A stretch of DNA of 64,000 bases from contig NC_079881.1 of assembly GCF_029227915.1 (NCBI RefSeq), positions 17,337,501-17,401,500 of the forward strand, read 5' to 3'. The notes beneath the pieces are model-generated. The model did not search any database, was not told the origin of the DNA, and saw nothing but the letters and a program-made list of their open reading frames with translations. Origin of the DNA: Hydractinia symbiolongicarpus (taxonomy: Eukaryota; Cnidaria; Hydrozoa; Anthoathecata; Hydractiniidae). A program made the position numbers and the translations under genes. Shown one piece after another: positions 37,101 to 40,100 of the stretch (position 1 is the stretch's first letter; every line of letters starts with the position of its first letter).

Positions 37101-40100
37101 TTATTAGATGATGAAGAAGGCGTCAGTTATGACGTCGATTCTTTATTCAGGAGTATCCCAATTGATGAGATTGTTAAAATTATTTGTGATGAGATTTATA
37201 TTCATGGAAAATTAGAAGCAATGTGCGATAGATCAATATAAGAGAAACTTCTTTTCAAATTAACGAAAGAATGCACTTTTACAGCTAACAATAAGTTATA
37301 CAAGAAAAACGATGGTGTATATATGTGTTCCTCTGTTAGTGGTTTTAGCAGCTTGTTTCATGAACAAAAGGGTGTACTTATTACAATAAAACTAAGAATT
37401 CACAAGAGATTTGTGGATGACACTTAAATCAGAAAAAAGAGAAATTTTTCAGATACAGACGCAAGGTATACATAAAGGGTATACATGAAGGGTATGCACT
37501 AAAGTGTAAGCAAGAAAGCAGATAGAACACAAAACTTTAAATGAATGATTCACTGAATTCATTTATTAAACATTAATACATAATTTATAATCACAGTTTA
37601 TTGAATAAAAGACCTCTCTAGAATTAAGTCAGTGCTTTGTTATAGTTTTCATTTAAATTTCAAAAAATACTACACTAATATTCACATCCCACACCTTAAA
37701 AAGTATTCTGGCATGAATGTGAAAAAAAGAAAGTAAAAAAACTATTTTATTGAACTTTCCACTTCATGTTATGATATAAATATTAACCATATGAAAAAAC
37801 TCAATTTCAATATTATTATGTACTATATGTACTTTTTTAATCCTGACAAGCTGCAAATTAAAAAGCTTTAGATAACTTCTAATGTAAAATAATATGAAAA
37901 CTAAATGTTCATTAAAATTAAATGAAGCTGTAGTATATATAAAAAAGACCAAATCAACAATTATTCATCACGAAGGTGGAAGGAGTTGTGGTGATAGCCA
38001 TGAAGATCTATCAGATAATGTTTCTGAATTTTATCATCTTTATATTTTTTCACATTCAGTGTTTACAAAGCAAGTCTGTCACAACTTTTCAATTACTTGT
38101 ATGGAAAAATAATCCACCCTACCATATACCAATGAAATACCGTACTAACAAACAAATAGAAGGCATACTCAAAAATCATTTCACAAATTTTGCAAGGGTA
38201 TGCAGACATGAATTCAAAGTCATAGTAAATAAAACAGCAATTGACAACTACAGCCTGCTCATTGAACTTATTAAAACAAAAAATACCGCTGAAGTTGAGG
38301 CAAACTATTCAAAAAAAGCAAATGAAATACTAGTCATTGGGGCATCCTCTTATGCAGTGCAAAACAAAGTCAACAAAAACTACACTGTTGAGACGTTGAT
38401 AACTTCTGGTGGAATGGCCATTATCGTACCAAACCATGATGTACTGCTTTTGTTAAGAATATTTCCTGCCATGCGCAATTGTTTTTCAATGTTTTACTTT
38501 GCAACCATGTCTTCCATAATCATTGCCTCAATTGTTTGGATTCTGGAACATAAAACTAATGACGAGTTTCCAAAATCATTTGGGAAAGGAATGATTGCAA
38601 GCACTTGGTTTTGCTATGTAACCATGACTACTGTTGGCTATGGAGAAAAAGTACCAAAACGGTGGGCCACACAGATATTATGTACGTGTTGGATGGGTTT
38701 TGGATTGATAATAGTTGCTATGGTAACTACAACAGTAATGGAGGAGGTTGGAAAAACAGTGGACATGCAAGGAAAGTCAGTGGCAGTTTTGCGAAATTCT
38801 GCTGAGAATGCGTACGCTAAGAGGCACTATGCTGCCATACCCAAGCAATATACAAGCTACGAAGAAGTTTTAGAGGCTGTTGAAAACAAAGATGTGGCAG
38901 CTGCATTAGTTGACAAAAATGTTGCAGGATTTTTTTTCAGTAATAACTTTTCAAAAAAGTATGAATTAAAAATTCAACAGGAGCTTAAATTGGAAATTCC
39001 AATCAAGGTTTTTATTTTGAATAGCAACCAGAAAAAACAAACAAACAGGAATTGCATTTGTAACGATAAATTAGAGCATTCAAGTGACCGCTGTAAAAAC
39101 AAGCAGTTTATTAATAAAGAAGAAGAATTTAGTATTGTAACAAACAAGCACATCATTCCAATAAAAGTGACACCGTACTATGTTCGGGAAATAAAAGATA
39201 TGTTAAACAATGCAGATTATGGAATGCTGAGATATTTGACAATAACTGCTTCTTTTTTAGTTATGTTGGGCATAATAACAGAAATACACAATGCATTTGA
39301 CAGAAAAAATAAGAAGAAAAGTAAAAGTACTGACACAAATAATTCCGAAGATACTTACAAGCATGCAGTTAGGCAAAAATTAAAAGTTCAATTTAACGAA
39401 ATCCTGAACAACTTGGATAAATTTTAACCTTTTAAGAGTTGCTGGTATTATCATAAAATGGTAGCTAATTACAATTTTTTTTACATTTTGCTGCTTTTTC
39501 TACCAAAGGATGTGTACAAAGTTCCGGAAAATAGCATCACTACAGAAGGGGTTTTAGCAATGGGGTAGGGATTGGATAAACAACACCATCCCTCCTTCCA
39601 GCCGTAGATAAACAAAACTGCTAAGCTTTGGTCAGGCAACTTACTTTGACCATTTCAAGAAATGACCACAGAGAGTCATTTCTAAAAAATGAAAGCCATG
39701 ATTGCAAATGTATTTTAATTTTTTTTGTAGATAATTTTAATGTTTAAGGCACGCAATAATTCTGTTGTAAATATTATGGAGTCGGCAACACAGGAAGTAT
39801 ATATATACAATTCCTCACTATTACAGTACTGACACTGGATGCTCATTGTCCAAATATTGCAGGCACAACTGTAATCCTGTTACAGTAGTAAATAGTAAAT
39901 AATATAATTATTTAGCATTTTGAAGGATGAGATCTATCACACTATACACAATCATGTTACGGATTAAAAATAAAAAAGAGGTATTAGTATTTTTTGCATG
40001 CATGGATTTAAGCTAACATATCCCCACAACATTATAGAACATATTGGGGGGGGGGGGGGGGGCAAAGACTGTGAACCCGCCGAAATTTTCTAATAAAACA

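Follow-up and report, generated by a model that had tools for sequence, protein, structure and literature searches.

A single-exon gene within a 64,000-nucleotide stretch of the genome of Hydractinia symbiolongicarpus, a colonial hydrozoan of the Cnidaria (hereafter the window; C7:17337501-17401500), encodes a protein that is likely a K+ channel subunit built on the plan of the ionotropic glutamate receptors (iGluRs), with diverged lobes sensing chemicals other than glutamate and an inhibitory output. The gene belongs to a family that numbers at least 23 genes in this genome, and the system is larger than the initial annotation of the window had reported. The sequence, the topology, the predicted fold, the size of the family and the absence of the canonical arginine were all computed here. 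The frame at 37976-39427 and its K+ filter were confirmed at the positions first assigned to them. The frame runs for 494 codons without a stop, against a longest stop-free run of 182 in 100 order-1 Markov sequences of 64 kb, and is real, far above chance length. The GTG at 37976 is a mechanical start, and translation likely begins at the ATG at 38000, which opens a signal-like segment. A search of the host genome recovered the gene at C7:17375500-17376924 with 100% identity and the same 494-codon open frame.

The signal segment, M1, M3 and M4 were all called by hydropathy. The structure model, a step proposed by the initial annotation, contains the strands and helices of S1, M1 at residues 162-183, a pore helix at 194-210, M3 at 222-251, the strands and helices of S2, and M4 from residue 398. 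Hydropathy and model thus agree with the topology claimed at the outset, in which a bilobed domain is split by M1, the pore and M3 and is followed by M4; the S1-M1-P-M3-S2-M4 order is that of the prediction, with a presumed orientation in the membrane. The pore loop carries TVGYG, in keeping with the TXVGYG filter of GluR0-like channels, and matches the Pfam family Ion_trans_2 with 43.3 bits (cut-off 22.5). The codon after GYG (38645-38647) specifies Glu in the window protein, where every other family member seen has Asp, the 91% identical relative P0003 among them. An animal protein that combines M4 with a K+ filter is of the AvGluR1 type; AvGluR1 and GluR0 had rightly been named as parallels. 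As had also been noted, the amino-terminal domain that animal iGluRs usually carry was not found in the window protein, S1 starting directly after the signal-like segment, and the SYTANLAAF gate motif is absent, the sequence at that place being VAMVTTTVM.

Searches of a set of 5.8 billion proteins yielded 15 family proteins, 14 of which were aligned with the window protein (alignment A6); P0007, a near-copy of P0006, was left out of the alignments. P0179 bears a TCONS identifier, a style that we take to be that of Clytia. Conservation across the family is highest in the filter and around it. Because the sequence search of the PDB showed matches of the pore and not of the lobes, the lobes were assessed by a profile test free of the pore and by structure models. 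The S2 half without the pore matched bacterial GluR0-like S2 (hhalign 95.6%), with 30.9 bits for the window protein, and 14 of the 15 family rows lay above the inclusion line (the exception is P0008). All 50 rows returned by VIA-align for the window model were solute-binding-type domains, GluR0 cores among them, over the range 24..385; no full-length iGluR was among these 50 rows, while Foldseek lists such iGluRs. A plain K+ channel of the two-transmembrane, Kv or K2P type was rejected, since the modelled lobes span residues 24-385 around the pore.

Several observations on the lobes weigh against an assignment to the iGluR plan. In the PDB, both P0002 and the 15-row family profile hit K+ channels best, via the pore. 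S1 gave a weak profile match, with 2 of 14 rows passing the inclusion line (hhalign 81%), and the Pfam ligand-binding-domain families gave no match at E <= 1 in the 15 proteins. Superposition of the window model on whole iGluRs gave low global TM-scores of 0.27-0.39, with root mean square deviation values of 10-18 Å. The predicted lobes are also not independent of GluR0 homology, because the alignments behind both models contain bacterial GluR0-like rows (28/43 and 28/41). The Pfam family Lig_chan reached 27.3 bits in the window protein, under the cut-off of 30.8, which several other family members of the host exceed.

The host genome (480.9 Mb in 76 contigs) was searched with one family query and one protein query, so that the census is a lower bound. 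The query P0002 gave 35 matches, which include at least 23 uninterrupted single-exon open reading frames (ORFs; L119-L141) of 341-516 amino acids from the first Met. M3 and M4 were found by hydropathy in all 23, and the filter reads TVGYG in 21, SVGYG in one and TVGFG in one. The 23 copies are spread over seven contigs (C4, C5, C6, C7, C11, C12 and C13). Seven of them are clustered with an interrupted copy, L142, at C13:7.738-7.850 Mb and three at C5:21.356-21.374 Mb, and pairs of family genes lie at C4:24.85 Mb and C7:7.88 Mb. The remaining matches comprise L142 and a split relative, L143; three loci with a filter but no M4, which look like ordinary K+ channels (L144, L145 and L148); two with no filter ORF (L146 and L147); and five without a locus, which fall outside the examined set. 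In two further loci resembling the Clytia-like subgroup (L116 and L117), the match stops after TVG and resumes at YGD some hundred bases on, with break points inside the K+ filter at L116:4562/5237 and L117:5775/6090. This is the pattern expected of an apparent intron inside the filter, which, if shared, could help to date the family. In L143 the filter is unbroken and the breaks lie elsewhere. From these three splits, the family seems to hold intron-bearing members beside the single-exon radiation.

A bacterial contaminant, or a bacterial GluR0 gene recently transferred, is highly improbable as the source of the gene. Its single exon would fit such an origin, as would the finding that, beyond the family itself, bacterial-type GluR0-like proteins match it best. 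Against it, the contig that carries the gene is a host contig of 33.3 Mb, a copia element and a DBF4-like frame (below its cut-off) are close by, 23 copies occupy seven contigs, and the same genome holds the three apparently intron-split relatives. M4 was found in none of the 78 ORFs with full GluR0-like coverage (from 88 loci, of which the other ten were not judged). Contamination is ruled out in practice by the multiple copies in host contigs and by P0004, a protein of H. symbiolongicarpus (LOC130649057) that is encoded letter for letter in L105 on the contig of the window. The cnidarian host suspected in the initial annotation is thereby established, and two of the outcomes named there as refuting the channel reading, a plain two-transmembrane K+ channel and bacterial contamination, were not found: the lobes flank the pore, and the family is a multicopy one of the host.

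The phylogenetic trees point the same way, in that the family is not nested within 106 bacterial-type rows. The 15 rows of A6 formed one clade (100/100) against 28 bacterial-type rows and two iGluRs. In a quick tree of 122 rows, which left out P0008, the 14 A6 rows were again one clade against 106 bacterial-type rows (Shimodaira-Hasegawa-like approximate likelihood ratio test, SH-aLRT, 99), of which a few at most came from viral contigs. A scan of viral contigs had given eight weak relatives (22-47% over short stretches), which entered this tree and the M4 survey, and in one search the best 80 of 313 relatives were used. In a quick tree of 58 rows, for which 14 of the 28 bacterial rows were used and L142-L148 left out, the 23 host genes and 12 other family rows, 35 in all, formed one clade (SH-aLRT 100). 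The family contains three subclades, and the Clytia-like one includes none of the 23 host genes. The tree suggested by the initial annotation showed the family as a clade of its own, but gave no decision on where it joins the bacterial rows and the animal iGluRs (approximately unbiased test of a grouping with animal iGluRs, p 0.32). An ancient transfer from bacteria may have predated the spread of the family.

The ratio of nonsynonymous to synonymous substitution rates (dN/dS) was calculated for the 14 of 253 pairs with more than 50% identity and dS <1.5, which cover 10 genes other than the window gene; L142-L148 were left out here as well. Values of 0.20-0.49 were obtained across these genes, and the 10 are under purifying selection. 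That the family consists of decaying pseudogenes is hardly conceivable in view of these values, the 23 uninterrupted ORFs and a relative that shares 91% identity with the window protein (P0003), although the frame of L142 is broken, either the signal-like segment or the beginning of S1 is missing from L125 and L139, and the match of L128 extends beyond its own stop. The pore segment had the lowest dN in all eight pairs that were split by region. As a sign of a pore conserved beyond the lobes this is tempered by the pore dS, which was also low, and by the pore dN/dS, which was under that of S2 in 8/8 pairs and under that of S1 in just 5/8.

The family appears to depart from ordinary iGluRs at the ligand site as well. 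The R485 column holds Arg in none of 14 family rows in a first alignment and in 2 of 22 host members in a second, as compared with 26 of 28 bacterial rows in the first. Glutamate, the ligand implied by the initial annotation, is not supported, because this S1 arginine is not conserved. Ordinary iGluRs of the host are represented by pieces of more than 300 amino acids from seven (L089, L091-L096) of eight loci retrieved with Lig_chan. All seven have the arginine at R485, and all have Q at the Q/R/N column, where the K+-filter family of the host has T in 22 of 23 members; the pieces stop before the E705 column, so no comparison is available there. Caution is required because R485 lies in a stretch that aligns unstably: for the window protein this column shows N in the first alignment and Q in the second, and the Lys of P0004, P0005, P0006 and P0180 in the first is mostly not seen in the second. 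To judge from these columns, the ligand chemistry of the lobes seems to have shifted within the family, whereas the filter has stayed the same.

Other columns would favour the view that the protein is a K+ channel gated by amino acids, as AvGluR1 and GluR0 are, and that its lobes still bind glutamate or another amino acid through Lys or a different residue at the place of Arg. The Y450 column is Y or F in all 22 host members with a letter there, and the E705 column has Asp in 12/12 other family rows and in 6 of 23 host members, the window protein among them; Lys at R485 in 4 of 14 family rows of one alignment would serve the same purpose. We regard this view as unlikely, given the general lack of Arg at R485 and the N found at E705 in 16 of the 23 host members (the last has S). 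As a guess, the conserved aromatic and, in the subgroup of the window protein, the Asp hint at a small ligand that carries an amine.

The absence of canonical ligand residues would also suit a ligand-independent K+ channel for leak, volume or ion stress, with lobes serving assembly or an ion response. In E. coli LB2003, Synechocystis GluR0 sustains K+ uptake, for which its soluble domains and their dimer contacts are required (PMC13099474). This alternative appears improbable, as the lobes diverge yet stay under purifying selection in the 10 genes, a constraint that seems to exceed what a scaffold calls for.

The preferred reading remains a chemically gated, inhibitory channel. In iGluRs, closure of the lobes on a ligand opens the M3 gate, and TXVGYG selects K+. 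Taken with the precedents of GluR0 and of an iGluR chimera, these properties suggest hyperpolarization as the outcome of opening. The gene product would be one subunit of a tetramer, in which the extracellular bilobed S1/S2 domain shuts on its ligand and tugs the linkers to the membrane helices, so that the pore opens; K+ efflux through the filter would then hyperpolarize the cell. For a family with conserved pores and diverged binding lobes, the most likely role would be the reception of varied external or intercellular chemicals other than glutamate. In a bolder and tentative form, one we hold possible rather than probable, the family is a hydrozoan repertoire of more than 20 K+-selective ionotropic chemoreceptors whose diverged lobes bind odorants, food or self-signals and hyperpolarize directly, an inhibitory counterpart of the insect ionotropic receptors (IRs) that evolved in a lineage from which no IRs are reported.

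In divergent IRs the ligand residues are changed, and IRs are not known to have a K+ filter. The likeness lies in the expansion of a mostly single-exon family, as in protostome IRs and above all the divergent ones; in Drosophila, these single-exon genes stand beside intron-rich antennal IRs, and the same survey detected no cnidarian IRs (PMC2924276). GluR0 (Synechocystis slr1257) and its bacterial relatives have in common with the family the S1-M1-P-M3-S2 plan, the K+ filter and the lack of an amino-terminal domain, and GluR0 cores rank with the best structural hits for the predicted lobes of the window protein. They differ in keeping the S1 arginine (26/28 rows), and GluR0 is without the M4 of the window protein (PMC11479355). 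GluR0 acts as a K+ channel in E. coli, for which the soluble domains are needed (PMC13099474). AvGluR1, of the rotifer Adineta vaga and compared by its description, is likewise an animal protein with four membrane segments and a TXVGYG filter (PMC11479355, PMC12332018, PMC3483616), but is gated by amino acids (PMC12226733), whereas the Hydractinia family has not kept the arginine and numbers at least 23 genes. The canonical iGluRs of the host share the S1-M1-pore-M3 order and the genome with the family, and differ in their R485 and Q/R/N residues (7/7); their open frames stop after M3, presumably because an intron follows. In the synthetic GluATCV chimera, a viral K+ channel within a GluA1 frame, an iGluR lobe gates a K+ pore (PMC6385376).

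A cnidarian iGluR with a K+ filter was not found in the accessible open-access literature, which largely leaves aside subscription journals and preprints, where one may be described; glutamate terms are absent from a survey of cnidarian Kv channels (PMC9989356). The papers examined describe one natural eukaryotic protein with this plan and filter, that of the rotifer. At least 23 such genes in a cnidarian research animal would show that these channels are no curiosity, and offer a new case for the kinship of iGluRs and K+ channels. They are testable candidates for inhibitory chemoreceptors in an early-branching animal and could supply ligand-gated silencers as tools.

Table 1. Features of the channel gene in the window (window positions; residues counted from the ATG at 38000).
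Feature	Position	Strand	Basis
Single-exon coding sequence, 475 amino acids + stop, K+-filter iGluR-like channel	38000..39427	+	mechanical ORF from GTG 37976
Signal-peptide-like segment, residues 1-22	38000..38065	+	hydropathy; model helix 2-22
S1 half of ligand-binding domain, ~residues 26-147	38075..38440	+	model; VIA-align range 24..385; weak S1 profile match, hhalign 81%
M1, residues 162-183	38483..38548	+	hydropathy, model
Pore helix and K+ filter, residues 194-215; TVGYG at 38630-38644	38579..38644	+	sequence, Pfam, model
M3, residues 222-251	38663..38752	+	hydropathy, model
S2 half of ligand-binding domain, ~residues 252-385	38753..39154	+	profile, model, VIA-align
Asp305, GluA2 E705 column	38912..38914	+	alignments
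Low-confidence Cys-bearing insert in S2, ~residues 342-374	39023..39121	+	predicted local distance difference test (pLDDT) <50 over 346-374
M4 and helical extension, residues 398-446 (model); hydropathy peak 408-426	39191..39337	+	hydropathy, model
Lys-rich C-terminal tail, presumably cytoplasmic by iGluR topology	39290..39424	+	sequence

Upstream of the channel gene, the sequence TATATAAA lies at 37936, 64 bases before the likely ATG. Elsewhere in the window, a Ty1/copia element at 53872-58479 carries one gag-pol frame of 1290 amino acids on the minus strand (54157-58029) between direct repeats of 278 bp (53872-54149 and 58202-58479), whose 100% identity suggests a recent insertion. Tandem repeats with a unit of ~590 bp, about 76-94% alike, occupy 14850-16903 and 19203-21713, with weaker copies at ~61561-62498. 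Frames at 49904-50992 show a DBF4-type zinc finger (23.2 bits, cut-off 24.8) and similarity to the PWWP3A/B C-terminus (21.3 bits, cut-off 27), and are probably pieces of host genes. Two adjoining frames at 3665-4693 match successive parts of DUF3472 and are perhaps exons of one gene.
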